The notes beneath the pieces were generated by a model. The model was not told the origin of the DNA. It worked only from the letters and a program-made list of their open reading frames with translations, and did not search any database. Made by a program: the position numbers and the translations under genes. This document shows positions 26,961-32,964 of a stretch of DNA of 33,017 bases, piece by piece. The DNA comes from Candidatus Thioglobus pontius. Its GTDB lineage: Bacteria > Pseudomonadota > Gammaproteobacteria > PS1 > Pseudothioglobaceae. Numbering within the stretch: position 1 is the stretch's first letter; every line of letters begins with the position of its first letter. The DNA is taken from positions 1-33,017 of the forward strand of contig JACNGB010000033.1 of the NCBI GenBank assembly GCA_014384345.1, given 5' to 3'.

Positions 26961-27837
26961 ACCCTAGTGAAGCAAGCGAACGCTTAGAATCAGACCAACC
27001 AGTTGAAACTTTGACCCATAGCTTCAAGAAAACTTTGCGATCTAAAAAACCTTCAATACTTTGACGTGACTCAGTGCCAATTATTTTTAACATTTCGCCT
27101 TTGTTGCCAATCACAATAGTTTTTTGCGATTCCTTTTCAACAAAAATTCTTGCTGCGATTCGCTGCATATTGCCATCTAACTCATACTGCTCAATCTCTA
27201 CCGTTAGATCATAAGGCAACTCATCTTCAAGATGACGCATCAGCTTTTCACGAATAAATTCTGCCACCACAAACTTTTCCGACCGATCAGTAATATAATC
27301 TGCATCAAAAATCATTGGCTGCTCAGGCAAATGTTTCAGCACCAAGGTTCTTAATGCATTAGTGTCTTTTTGTTTAAATGCAGACAGTGGGAACAAATCG
27401 GTTGGCTGATATTTTTGCGATATTTTTTCTAAAAATGGCAGTACTGCTTGCGCTGATGCCAATTTATCAATTTTATTAATACACATAACAACCGGCACAT
27501 CAATTTTACTCACGTGTTCTAAAACACGCGCATCTTCCTTGGTCCACTTGCCTGCTTCAACCAACCATAGAATCATGTCTACGTCTTTAATACTTGAGCT
27601 TGCCGCGCGATTCATGTAGGCGTTAATAGCTTTCTTATTGCCAATATGAACACCTGGTGTATCTACAAACACCATTTGGTAATCATCCGTTGTATCAATC
27701 GCATGAATACGGTGGCGCGTGGTTTGTGGTCGGTGTGAGGTAATAGAAAGTTTTTGCCCAATAAGCTCATTAACCAAAGTAGATTTACCTACATTTGGAC
27801 GACCAACAACTGCGATAAATCCTGCTTGAAATGCCAT
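26953..27837 (-). CDS. era: GTPase Era
   Basis: 294 aa; GFIAVVGRPNVGKSTLVNELIGQKLSITSHRPQTTRHRI, KH-domain end. Confidence 0.97.
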   Translation of the reverse strand: MAFQAGFIAVVGRPNVGKSTLVNELIGQKLSITSHRPQTTRHRIHAIDTTDDYQMVFVDTPGVHIGNKKAINAYMNRAASSSIKDVDMILWLVEAGKWTKEDARVLEHVSKIDVPVVMCINKIDKLASAQAVLPFLEKISQKYQPTDLFPLSAFKQKDTNALRTLVLKHLPEQPMIFDADYITDRSEKFVVAEFIREKLMRHLEDELPYDLTVEIEQYELDGNMQRIAARIFVEKESQKTIVIGNKGEMLKIIGTESRQSIEGFLDRKVFLKLWVKVSTGWSDSKRSLASLGYD

Positions 27838-28505
27838 TATTTTTTCTCCTTAAGCTTTTCCAGCAAAATTTGTGCACACGATTGCTCAGCGCGTTTAATA
27901 CTTTTAGCATCTTGATCAACTTGAATATTCTGATCAGCCAAGAAGCAATTAACGGTAAAAATGGCATTATGATCTTTACCTACGGTCTTGATAAGCTCGT
28001 ATTTTGGCAGGGCATTGTTGCGCTTTTGTAAATATTCTTGCAGTTGTGTTTTAGGATCTTTTAAAGAATCATTCGGATTGATTTCGTCAAGTAATTCTTT
28101 AAATAGATCCAAAATAACCGTATTGATCGTTTCTAAATCAGAGTCTAATAAAATAGCACCGAAAATCGCCTCAACCGCATCTGCTTGAATAGACTCACGT
28201 CGATAACCGCCACTCTTTAATTCTCCCGAACCTAAAATCAACACCTCGGATAAATTTAGCATAATGCCGAATTTTGCCAACGTTTGACCGCGCACTAGGT
28301 GTGATCTAAGGCGAGATAACTTTCCTTCTTCGACATAAGGAAAACGCTTGTACAATTCTCGAGAAATAACCAGACCTAAAATACTGTCACCCAAAAACTC
28401 AAGACGCTCATTATTTTTCTTACCCATGCTTCGATGCGTCAATGCAAGCGTTAACAGCGATAAATCTTTAAATTGATAGTTGAGTTTTTGTTGTAATTTT
28501 TCCAT
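27837..28505 (-). CDS. rnc: Ribonuclease III
   Basis: 222 aa; NERLEFLGDSILGLVIS, QADAVEAIFGAILLD, dsRBD at the C-terminus. Confidence 0.97.
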   Translation of the reverse strand: MEKLQQKLNYQFKDLSLLTLALTHRSMGKKNNERLEFLGDSILGLVISRELYKRFPYVEEGKLSRLRSHLVRGQTLAKFGIMLNLSEVLILGSGELKSGGYRRESIQADAVEAIFGAILLDSDLETINTVILDLFKELLDEINPNDSLKDPKTQLQEYLQKRNNALPKYELIKTVGKDHNAIFTVNCFLADQNIQVDQDAKSIKRAEQSCAQILLEKLKEKK

Positions 28506-28543
28506 CTATAATGACGCAATAATAATTTATTACTTAAGTTTGT

Positions 28544-29212
28544 ATGTTTTGGCAAGAAGACACTAAAGAAGAACATTTTACGCTTCCTGAGGCTATTCAA
28601 GAGGTTAGCTTTAAAATCCAGTCAAAAATACTGCCCATGGATCATCATTTTTTACTGGCTGAAGCACTACTAAAACACCTGCCCTGGCTAAGAGATGCTA
28701 ATGCCGGCATTCATGATATTAGTGTGGCAGATGGCAATGGCTGGGAGCAAAATAAAGAAGGTGGATTTTACTACCCTTCAAAACGCTCTAAACTGACTTT
28801 ACGCCTCCCTACTGAGCATATTGAAGCTGCTAAGGAGCTGAGTGGAAAAACACTAAATTTGGGTGACTATCAAATCAAAGTGGTTAAATACATTGGTACA
28901 AAGCTACTGAGCGATATGCCAGTTTTGTTCGCCAAACAAGTTGCTTGTGAATCAAACCTCAGTGAAGATGATTTTTTAAAATTGTGTTTCGAACAGTTGT
29001 CTAAATTAGGCATTCAAGTTAAAAAGATGATGGCCGGCTTAGAAAGTAATATTCAAACTGATATTGGCAAAATTCATACTCGCTCTTTAATGCTAGCCGA
29101 CCTTAAAAAAGATGAATCAGTACTATTACAAGAAAAAGGCCTTGGTGATTATCGCCTATTAGGTTGCGGGTTATTCGTTCCTCAAAAAAACATCGAAACC
29201 ATCGAAAGCTAA
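28544..29212 (+). CDS. Cas6-like protein resembling Cmx6 (subtype I-MYXAN Cas6), orphan
   Basis: 222 aa; N-terminal VSFKIQSKILPMDHHFLLAEALLKHLPWLRD...GIHDIS, middle SKLTLRLP..HIEAAKELSGKTLNLGDYQIKV, C-terminal glycine-rich loop VLLQEKGLGDYRLLGCGLFVP as in Cas6/RAMP proteins. Confidence 0.72.
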   Translation: MFWQEDTKEEHFTLPEAIQEVSFKIQSKILPMDHHFLLAEALLKHLPWLRDANAGIHDISVADGNGWEQNKEGGFYYPSKRSKLTLRLPTEHIEAAKELSGKTLNLGDYQIKVVKYIGTKLLSDMPVLFAKQVACESNLSEDDFLKLCFEQLSKLGIQVKKMMAGLESNIQTDIGKIHTRSLMLADLKKDESVLLQEKGLGDYRLLGCGLFVPQKNIETIES

Positions 29213-29249
29213 TTCTAGACTTGTGCTGATCAAGTTTTTAGACTAGAAT
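29212..29249 (+). other. Interrupted stem-loop between the Cas6-like gene and the thioredoxin-fold gene
   Basis: ATTCTAG-ACTTG-tgctgat-CAAGT-tttttaga-CTAGAAT: a 7-bp outer and a 5-bp inner stem with an asymmetric bulge. Confidence 0.4.
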
Positions 29250-29285
29250 CTTCAAATATCTACAAAAATACTCTGGGGAGAGGTT

Positions 29286-30317
29286 ATGCGCATACTGTTT
29301 GCTAGTTTTTTACTCTTGTTGTCAACTTATAATTTTGCACACGAACACGAGCCTTCGGGGGATTACCTAGGTGCCAAGATTGTTGATGAATTGCCTAATT
29401 GGTTCAAAGCTACTTTTATGGATTTTTCTGAAGATTTGGAAGAGGCCGCTGATGAAGGAAAGCATGTGATGATTTACTTTCATCAAGACGGCTGCCCCTA
29501 CTGCGCAAAATTAGTACAAGATAACTTTCATGATAAAAAGCTCGTTGCCAAACTACAAAAGAACTTTGACACCATTGAAACCAACATGTGGGGAGATCGC
29601 GAACTGGTTGATTGGCAAGGAAATGAATTAACAGAAAAAGAATTTTCAACACAAATGAAAATTCAATTCACCCCTACCCTAGTCTTCCTAAACCCTAAAG
29701 GTGAAACCCTACTCCGACTCAATGGCTATCAGTCTATTGAAAAAATGCATGCAACACTTGACTATATTGCTAATAAAACATACCTCAAGCAAACCTATGC
29801 TAGCTATCTAAACAACCTAAAGAAAAATAAAACAGGTACGCTAAATGCCCACCCTATTTTTGAATCTGGTCCGCACATGCTAGCCAGAAGCCAAACCATG
29901 CCGGCAGAAAAATATTTAGCTGTATTTTTTGAGGAGCCTAATTGCAAATCTTGTGATAATTTACACAAAGAACTCATGCCATTAAAAGACACTCAAGACT
30001 ATTTAAGTCAAATGCAAGTGGTGCGCTTTAACGCACTATCTGATGAAAAACTAATCACCCCTGCAGGTAAACAAACCACCGCCAAAGATTGGTATGACGA
30101 ACTCAATCTTACCTACAAGCCAGCGATTGTATTTTTTGATAAAACCGGCGAAGAAATCATCAGACGGGATGCGTTTTTCAAAGCGTATCACACCCACGGC
30201 ATCATGACTTATGTGCTCTCTGGTGCCTACAAAACTCAGCCAAACTTTCAGCGTTATTTAGAGGATAAATCAGACAAGTTACGCGAGCAAGGTATTACCG
30301 TAGATCTTTGGAAATAG
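29286..30317 (+). CDS. Secreted protein with two thioredoxin-fold domains (SoxW-like)
   Basis: 343 aa; signal peptide; domain 1 MIYFHQDGCPYCAKLVQDNF (CPYC) with FTPTLVFLNPKG; domain 2 AVFFEEPNCKSCDNLHKEL (CKSC) with YKPAIVFFDKTG. Confidence 0.88.
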   Translation: MRILFASFLLLLSTYNFAHEHEPSGDYLGAKIVDELPNWFKATFMDFSEDLEEAADEGKHVMIYFHQDGCPYCAKLVQDNFHDKKLVAKLQKNFDTIETNMWGDRELVDWQGNELTEKEFSTQMKIQFTPTLVFLNPKGETLLRLNGYQSIEKMHATLDYIANKTYLKQTYASYLNNLKKNKTGTLNAHPIFESGPHMLARSQTMPAEKYLAVFFEEPNCKSCDNLHKELMPLKDTQDYLSQMQVVRFNALSDEKLITPAGKQTTAKDWYDELNLTYKPAIVFFDKTGEEIIRRDAFFKAYHTHGIMTYVLSGAYKTQPNFQRYLEDKSDKLREQGITVDLWK

Positions 30318-32215
30318 ATCTAAAACTTCAACCCAACCTTAACCGCCAAGCTATCCGAGTATCCTGCATCAACTGCCTCAGTTCTTTCGTAGCTGATTGA
30401 GCTATCCCATTCATCTTTAGTGTATAGGTCTGCACCTAAGACAAACTTCCAGTTTGAATCGGCTTTGTTATCAAGCTCTAGCTGATAGTTAGTCGTCTCA
30501 TTGTTGTAATGCATATTAACCATTGATGAGCCTGAGACATCTGCACCATATTCAAACTTCATAAACGGTCTGATGTTGCCGTTTTGGATTGGGATTAAGT
30601 AGTCTGCATCAACGCCTGCTGATAGCACGGTTGAGTCAATCGTTTGCTCACCATAGGTGAGTGCGGTAGCACCGCCTGTTTCAGAGTAGCCATCATACCA
30701 AGTGCGTGAAGCGTACAATTTGCCATAAGGCGATAAAGAGAAGCTGCCTACGTTAACAGTCTTCTGCTTAAACATTAGCGAGGTAAAGAACTGATTAGCA
30801 TCGTGTGCACCTATTAAAGTATCTGAGCCATCGATACGAGTCTTATCTACGTTGATATGACCATAGCCCACTATTGCTTGTGCCAAATCCTTATCATTTT
30901 GTCTGATAACACCATAAGCAGAGAGTGAGTAGCTGTCTGCATCAACGGTAGAGTTATTGGTGGTATCAGCATCACTCTTACCAATACCTAACACTACACC
31001 AACAATATGCCCTGCATTGTCTGAGGATTGATTGTCATCTTTGATGATTCTATCAAAACCTAGAGAGATGTTCTGAGTCTCAGAGTCTTGTGCAGATGAG
31101 TTCGAAGTAGAATATGTTTTACCTACGGTAATACGCCCTTCAGTCCAAACGTTCCAGTCGCCCATTACTTTGGTATTGCTGGTGGCGTTAAGCACTTTAT
31201 CAATCGTGTCTTCGCGCACCTTGGCAAATTCATTATAAGCAACACTACTTAAGCCTTGTTTGGTGTCATCCGTTATGGCACTCACTTCTGGTGCTTCACC
31301 GTTTTTAATGTTGTTACGTATTAATTTAACAAACTCATTATTTAGCTCTAGCTTACCAGGTTTAACATAAGCGGTGTTCATTAGCTTATCTACCGTCGGG
31401 TTAGCAAAGTTAAGTCTAATACCTTGATGTGATAAATTACTACTACGAGCATTAACGCTTAGCCAACTCAATCTATTATCAACTGCATTAAGGCTCATCA
31501 TTACAGCGTCGATAGCAACGCCACTCATAGATTTAATACTTGTATTTACATCTATTTTGCTACCTGGATTTAATAAACAAATCCAAATAAATTGAGCGTC
31601 ATTTGTGTTGGCATTGTTTGACGAATCAGTAAACATTCCAGATTTCACACTAACTGTAGCTGTAACACCCTCTGTAATTGGCGTTAACGTTGCTGTGTAA
31701 ACGGTAGATGAGGTTGCACTAAAACTTGAGAGCGTTCCATTGCTTACCGTAATGTCATCAACAGCAAAGTTAGAAGTGGCTTTATTAGAGGTAAAAGTCA
31801 TTGTCAGTGTTGCATCGTCTGAGGTTGAGCCATTTGCAACACTACTAGCACCACTGGCAGTGATGGTCATTGTTGGTCCGGTTGAGTCGCCAGATAAAGT
31901 GGTAAAGTTAAGTGTGGTTGTGTCACTAATACCTGCATAAGAGTTTGATGAAGAATCATCAAAAGCAGTTGAAGCAATTTGTAAATAATAACCCGTTGAA
32001 TTGTCTAAATCAACTGCTGGGTTAATGGTGATGGTGGTCGAACCTGAACCTGATATATCTGAAGTTACATCAAAGGTTTCTACAGTTGAGTCATCAGAGG
32101 TTTTTTTAAGGGTAATGTTGCCGCTCTCAGCATCAACCGCTTCGCTAAAAGTTAGAGTAATGTTGCTACTGGCATTAAAGTTATTTGACCCATCAGCAGG
32201 TGAAGATGAGGATAG

Positions 32216-32382
32216 AGTTGGCGCATCTTCATCCAAATCAGTTACTGTGATGGTGATAGATTGAGTGCTAGCATTACCAGCAGTGTCGGTTGCTGTGGCG
32301 GTAAAGCTATAAGAGGATTTAGTCTCATAATCAGGGGCTGAGTCAAAAGTAACAACGCCTGTTGATGAATTAATACTAAAAG
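32216..32382 (-). repeat. 167-bp repeat, copy A (cadherin module junction)
   Basis: Identical by eye to 32798-32964, offset 582 bp (194 codons, in frame). Confidence 0.93.
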
Positions 32383-32797
32383 ATGCTGAGTCGCCACCAC
32401 TGATTGAATAAGTAATTGTATTGGTGTCTGTCGCGTTAATATCAATTGCAGTGGTTTGGTTTTCAGCAACGCTAGCTGTAGATGATGAAGATACGCTTGG
32501 TGAGGTGGTATCTCCAATAACGGTAAAGTTCGATGTTGCACTACTTACATTTCCAGAAGAGTCAGTTTCTTTAACGTTGAACTGATAAGTTGTTCCATTA
32601 GCAACAGTCGCTGTATAACTCCAAGAAGTTCCACTAATCGTTGCTGCTCCTAACGAGGATGCTGCGTTAAACACTTCAACGCTAGACCCAGATTCATTAG
32701 ATCCTGATAATACTAAAGCAGTATCATCTGTAGCATCTCCAGAACTAAGCGTGCCTGTAATGCTTCCCACATTATCTGTAGCAGCAGAGAACACGGC

Positions 32798-32964
32798 AGT
32801 TGGCGCATCTTCATCCAAATCAGTTACTGTGATGGTGATAGATTGAGTGCTAGCATTACCAGCAGTGTCGGTTGCTGTGGCGGTAAAGCTATAAGAGGAT
32901 TTAGTCTCATAATCAGGGGCTGAGTCAAAAGTAACAACGCCTGTTGATGAATTAATACTAAAAG
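32798..32964 (-). repeat. 167-bp repeat, copy B, ending abruptly at 32964
   Basis: Identical by eye to 32216-32382; the following sequence is unrelated to copy A's continuation. Confidence 0.93.

Follow-up and report, generated by a model that had tools for sequence, protein, structure and literature searches.

A stand-alone Cas6 that co-occurs with the reverse-Dsr sulfur-oxidation genes of Gammaproteobacteria

Background

The closest described counterparts of the gene studied here are the Cas6 (Cmx6) proteins of type I-MYXAN CRISPR systems (TIGR02807, PF09559), such as that of the Gloeothece citriformis plasmid pP742402, whose profile and length it shares. The closest solved structure is the Cas6 of a Nostoc type I-B CAST (PDB 8fcj, 8fcu), to which the protein is matched by HMM comparison (8fcj_B, E 2.8e-19), and the same double ferredoxin-like fold is found in Pyrococcus furiosus Cas6 (3i4h, 3pkm) and in Cas6e (2y8w, 4tvx). 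Reuse of Cas proteins outside immunity, as in CASTs, HRAMP and solo Cas4, is reviewed in PMC8730458; where that review treats Cas6 and non-CRISPR uses, it lists no solitary Cas6 within a set of metabolic genes.

Reverse dissimilatory sulfite reductase (reverse Dsr) is one of the main means by which sulfur is oxidised in marine waters, sediments and symbioses with animals, and work on its genes goes back decades. Neither Cas6 nor CRISPR is mentioned in a survey from 2024 of how the Dsr genes evolved (PMC11406059), and no link between Cas6 and dsr was found in the literature searched, the coverage of which was incomplete, so that earlier notice elsewhere is possible. The tie was probably overlooked because of the automatic label "type I-MYXAN CRISPR-associated Cas6/Cmx6".

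Here we analyse a stretch of 33,017 nucleotides (contig JACNGB010000033.1; hereafter the window) from a Thioglobus-type sulfur oxidiser with a genome of 1.25 Mb (1,249,309 bases, 99.8% complete), whose relatives include Candidatus Thioglobus and the thiotrophic symbionts of Bathymodiolus. We are highly confident that its Cas6 stands outside CRISPR. Our main reading, to which we give a probability of roughly 0.6, is that this Cas6 was recruited away from CRISPR immunity, became a fixed component of the gammaproteobacterial reverse-Dsr sulfur-oxidation gene set and serves as a hairpin-RNA-cutting component of the sulfur-oxidation programme.

Results and discussion

Identity and conserved residues of the window Cas6

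The window ORF (Table 1) contains DH, LPWL, KLTLRLP and GLGDYRLLGCGLFVP segments, from which the initial annotation had read a Cmx6-like Cas6 layout. Profile searches, where it had expected the idea to fail if wrong, and comparison of a structural model with known Cas6 structures both uphold that reading. The protein matches the Pfam Cas6 family (PF09559) at 157.6 bits over a cut-off of 26.7, NCBIfam TIGR02807 (cas6_cmx6) at 101 over a cut-off of 98.85, and PADLOC Cas6 with E = 7e-58. When the AF2 model (pLDDT 88.9) was compared with the PDB by Foldseek, the top 42 matches were Cas6 or Cascade entries; the best match to a solved Cas6 had E 1e-16 and a TM of about 0.8, and those to P. furiosus Cas6 and Cas6e ranged from E 1e-7 to 1e-5. 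The gene is almost certainly a true Cas6 homologue outside CRISPR. It is present in a single copy in the host genome, and stand-alone Cas6 is under strong purifying selection, with dN/dS among relatives of about 0.08-0.11.

Table 1. Coordinates of features in the window, and of related features and genomes elsewhere (window positions are numbered from its first base)
Feature	Location	Strand	Basis or remark
Stand-alone Cas6, dsr-associated subfamily, 222 aa	28544..29212	+	PF09559, TIGR02807, PADLOC Cas6; AF2 model
H34 codon, catalytic-histidine position of Cas6, start of helix 1	28643..28645	+	alignment
NGW motif, residues 65-67, stand-alone subfamily only	28736..28744	+	alignment
R81 and R87, strand 2 region	28784..28804	+	each 80/80 in alignment A2
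E141	28964..28966	+	81/81 stand-alone vs 0/6 CRISPR-linked
C-terminal glycine-rich loop of Cas6, GLGDYRLLGCGLFVP, residues 199-213	29138..29182	+	alignment
rnc (RNase III), divergent from Cas6; lineage-specific neighbour, era next	27837..28505	-	neighbourhood comparison
Divergent rnc/cas6 intergenic region, 38 bp	28506..28543	.	sequence
Secreted two-thioredoxin-domain protein, lineage-specific neighbour	29286..30317	+	Thioredoxin_2 E 1e-37, two stretches
Cys-less DsrC-like gene	L039:6781-7119, L042:2726-3067		host copy L124:7381 onward
c22 genes	L118:478-1086, L085:7077-7646		host copy L159:625-1290
Region of host with TauD-like gene and adjoining ubiU-, ubiV- and ubiT-like genes	L212:3414-6222		
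dsrC-dsrM intergenic hairpin of host	L089:6900-6985		
Promoter-like pair upstream of dsrA	L070, L094-L097, L099, L102, L105, L107		
Cas6/dsrA mismatches at contig edges	G096, G117, G146, G298, G130, G142, G221		
Cas6/dsrA mismatches with partial dsrA	G230, G269		

H34, at the position of the catalytic histidine of Cas6, is conserved in all 81 stand-alone proteins and in 6/6 CRISPR-linked Cmx6 (80/80 in alignment A2). R87 is likewise common to both groups, as are G199, G201, G207, C208, G209 and F211 of the C-terminal loop, which follows the pattern GLGxxRxLGCGLF of the Cas6 glycine-rich loop. Other positions set the stand-alone subfamily apart: R81 is specific to it, the NGW motif (N in 75/80, G in 79/80 and W in 77/80 sequences of A2) is missing from CRISPR-linked Cmx6, and the latter have proline at the position of E141. 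A catalytic residue retained in altered surroundings is the pattern to be expected if a nuclease has taken on a new substrate, and on this sequence evidence the stand-alone Cas6 probably cuts RNA.

Absence of CRISPR from the host

A scan of 1,248,568 of the 1,249,309 bases of the host genome (99.9%) found no CRISPR array, using a scanner that recovered 50 of 50 synthetic four-repeat arrays, and neither cas1 nor DevR/Cas7 was found in the host genome. The window Cas6 is not surrounded by a type I-MYXAN operon (cas3, cas8, cas7/DevR, cas5/DevS). The proposal that this Cas6 stands outside CRISPR is thus confirmed, and a functional I-MYXAN locus elsewhere in the genome, which the initial annotation had named as the finding that would speak against it, did not turn up. 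Viral homologues of the stand-alone Cas6 were found neither by sequence nor by fold.

Co-occurrence with dsrA

The distribution of the subfamily was determined in 276 genomes sampled evenly across the Gammaproteobacteria, using a Cas6 profile (A1) built from 16 sequences, TIGR02064 for dsrA and PF01867 for cas1; one extra Cas6 match at 19.6 bits was excluded from the counts. Cas6 was present in 92 genomes from 53 GTDB families, 51 of which also carry full dsrA. Both genes were found in 86 genomes, Cas6 only in six, dsrA only in three and neither in 181, giving an odds ratio of 865 and P = 6e-60 with kinship ignored, a value that overstates the certainty because the genomes are not independent samples. 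Seven of the nine mismatches are at the ends of contigs, just where the partner should be, and two have a partial dsrA; among single-contig genomes with Cas6, dsrA was present in 11/11. Within the host family, neither Cas6 nor dsrA is present in g9 or in genus g3, the latter represented by four genomes of which two are closed, and further mismatches occur in the draft genomes G016, G025, G028 and G032. Carriage of cas1 was not associated with Cas6 (42/92 carriers vs 69/184 other genomes, P = 0.20).

When a phylum sample of 299 genomes was searched, all four dsrA-bearing Gammaproteobacteria had Cas6, and the 32 genomes from other classes that carry dsrA yielded no stand-alone Cas6. Cas6 thus accompanies reverse Dsr in this class specifically, and the pathway does not mechanistically require it. 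That the two are functionally tied we consider very likely.

Organization of the dsr loci

Cas6 lies no more than 6 kb from dsrA in 64 of the 92 genomes. The first loci from outside the host family place it beside genes for a DsrC/TusE-superfamily protein, a TauD-like protein and other Fe(II)/2-oxoglutarate dioxygenases, next to the reverse-Dsr operon. About 40 loci share an order in which dsrKMCHFEBA runs one way and the TauD-like gene, Cas6 and the DsrC-like gene run divergently, often with PKHD-type and other Fe2OG genes, a DUF6866 gene and a gene designated c22 nearby; in three genomes that are more distantly related the order is dsrA / Cas6, DsrC-like, c22, TauD-like. The Cas6 and TauD-like distances are correlated (r = 0.74). 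The Cas6 frame is extended N-terminally in two of these three distant genomes, L117 and L118 (open frames of 401 and 322 aa), and the extension in L118 is a DUF6967 domain (PF22295).

The DsrC-like protein encoded beside Cas6 belongs to TIGR03342 (TusE/DsrC/DsvC) and PF04358, and ends in xRKGGY in 35/35 cases, the conserved C-terminal cysteine being missing, while the genuine dsrC of the same loci has a KPTGCV/I ending in 38/38. We presume that these Cys-less proteins may correspond to the RspA group. The c22 product is an all-helical protein of about 190 aa with a confident model (pLDDT 87.7) and no Pfam, NCBIfam or PDB-fold match.

Throughout Thioglobaceae, the window included, Cas6 is unlinked from dsrAB, and the host dsrA is on another contig. 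The host nevertheless still encodes the Cys-less DsrC-like (RspA-like), TauD-like and c22 proteins from scattered genes; relatives of the PKHD, Fe2OG and DUF6866 genes were not found in its genome. In closed relatives of the host the DsrC-like gene is co-oriented with Cas6 and follows it at a distance of about 8-9 kb. That this set of four outlives the break-up of the cluster favours function over hitch-hiking. The host copy of c22 adjoins a thioredoxin-type gene, and the host TauD-like gene stands beside ubiU-, ubiV- and ubiT-like genes, named by eye, which we take to be those of oxygen-independent ubiquinone synthesis.

The immediate neighbours in the window are of a different kind. The divergent rnc and the co-oriented gene 73 bp downstream, which encodes a protein with CPYC and CKSC motifs and a signal-peptide-like start, are exactly where the initial annotation had placed them. 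Most genomes of the host family have a Cas6 ortholog (55-91% identity), always adjoined by rnc, and the order era-rnc / cas6-trx2 is kept in most Thioglobaceae loci, so that linkage to the thioredoxin gene is conserved there; homologues of rnc and trx2 are not detectable near Cas6 in the other lineages examined. The Thioglobaceae neighbourhood says little, because the loci there are syntenic with core genes. The idea that the two genes are meaningful partners is consequently not supported, their proximity to Cas6 being confined to the host family among the lineages examined, and of the suggested role in sulfur or redox metabolism it is the direction towards sulfur, supported by the way Cas6 tracks dsrA, that survives. 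Towards the contig end lies a large repeat-rich adhesin/autotransporter-like ORF (window 30320-32818, minus strand).

Candidate RNA targets

The dsr transcripts are a plausible target in view of a passage of PMC3397948, citing Grimm et al. 2010, according to which dsrEFH and dsrC mRNA of A. vinosum far exceed dsrA mRNA; this imbalance is compatible with operon processing and also with other causes. The hairpin between dsrC and dsrM is stable, recurs in about 35 loci, nearly all dsr operons, and is the sole enriched one, with stems of at least 9 in 68%. It occurs with or without a T run. This hairpin, including the host copy, looks like an intrinsic terminator and is a candidate processing site. 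Hairpins in dsrA leaders were rejected as target evidence in spite of a mean z of -0.8 in 21 leaders, since counts of perfect stems were no higher than in shuffled sequence. Also rejected was a hairpin between Cas6 and trx2, which is present in the window and its nearest relative and is not conserved across Thioglobaceae. An Rfam scan of the dsr loci returned nothing but one tRNA.

A recurring promoter-like pair, roughly GGTAGGGT followed by CCTAGACTTC, is found upstream of dsrA (Table 1). It is not a standard sigma-70 pair and may be the mark of a dedicated regulator.

Proposed mechanism and alternatives

In the mechanism that we propose, Cas6 would bind a particular RNA hairpin, as CRISPR Cas6 does, and would cut it by general acid-base chemistry via H34 with no divalent metal. 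The target would probably be a sulfur-oxidation transcript or an RNA controlling that programme, and Cas6 would tune dsr expression post-transcriptionally, acting alongside the Cys-less DsrC-like protein, the TauD-like Fe(II)/2-oxoglutarate dioxygenase and c22. The narrower proposal that dsr RNA is the target is tentative, and we would bet somewhat against it. We put even odds on the generalization that all gammaproteobacterial reverse-Dsr oxidisers, former betaproteobacterial ones included, use a Cas6-type hairpin ribonuclease post-transcriptionally together with the Cys-less DsrC-like and TauD-like proteins.

Cas6 might instead be a regulator that binds RNA without cutting it and in this way governs how sulfur-oxidation transcripts are translated or how long they last, either holding a structured RNA or being sequestered by the Cys-less DsrC-like protein. 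Cas6 proteins commonly remain bound to their product RNA, a habit that suits binding alone; the subfamily-specific R81, E141 and NGW indicate a changed mode of binding, and the nearest solved relative, the I-B CAST Cas6, has Asn at the H34 position. We nevertheless judge such a role unlikely, as an H34 invariant in 80/80 sequences is hard to explain without catalysis, though it could be structural. Still less probable is a role in which Cas6 acts on a stable RNA, such as tRNA, where the sulfur relay meets tRNA thiolation, with the neighbouring DsrC/TusE-family protein linking RNA and sulfur trafficking. The placement of the adjacent gene in TIGR03342 and the established homology of DsrEFH/DsrC to TusBCD/TusE (PMC3397948) would agree with this, but the adjacent protein is without the sulfur-carrier cysteine, the conserved cluster contains no tRNA-modification gene, and Cas6 tracks dsrA-bearing genomes, not tRNA thiolation generally.

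The remaining explanations we regard as very improbable. An ordinary Cas6 serving a CRISPR system elsewhere, or a CRISPR relic, could be suspected from a score barely over the cut-off of TIGR02807, by which CRISPR genes are annotated automatically; however, the host has no array, cas1 or DevR, 50 of the 92 carriers are missing cas1 and no association with it is seen, the CRISPR-linked Cmx6, encoded in a cas3-cas8-cas7-cas5 operon, shares no more than 25-29% identity, and the gene is under strong purifying selection. Partnership with RNase III or the thioredoxin protein has just as little chance: the gene order kept in most Thioglobaceae loci would support it, but that synteny extends to core genes, neither gene is near Cas6 in other lineages examined, and the thioredoxin protein is exported while Cas6 is cytosolic. 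Scarcely better is the prospect that Cas6 is carried along in the dsr island, as a passenger or as a defence gene, with no part in sulfur oxidation. Unrelated genes can ride in gene islands, and phylogenetic relatedness links the genomes of the class-level sample; yet the host and its relatives retain Cas6 with dsr though the two are unlinked, both are missing together in g3 and g9, a streamlined 1.25-Mb genome retains the gene, and viral or mobile copies were not found.

Conclusions

If the proposed role for Cas6 is true, an enzyme family of CRISPR RNA processing has become fixed in core energy metabolism. The tie between Cas6 and dsrA suggests that a metabolism of global importance includes a step at the RNA level that has gone unrecognised. 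The dsr-associated Cas6 offers a practical way into the post-transcriptional control of dsr, and as a lone subfamily it lends itself to studying the domestication of a CRISPR nuclease.

Among accessory proteins of reverse Dsr, DsrR and DsrS (PMC11406059) resemble Cas6 in being lineage-restricted extras of sulfur oxidation, DsrR being regulatory, but none of them is a Cas6. P. furiosus Cas6 and Cas6e have the fold of the window protein and differ from it in sequence (10-16% identity) and in their CRISPR function, while the Nostoc I-B CAST Cas6 is part of a transposon Cascade and has Asn where H34 stands. The Cmx6 proteins of type I-MYXAN share D33-H34, R87 and the loop GxGxxRxxGCGxF with the stand-alone Cas6. 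R81, E141, NGW and an N-terminal MxWxE belong to the latter only, which, at 25-29% identity and unlike Cmx6, has no cas operon or array and is dsr-linked. The Cas6 fold family is known; its reverse-Dsr setting is new.
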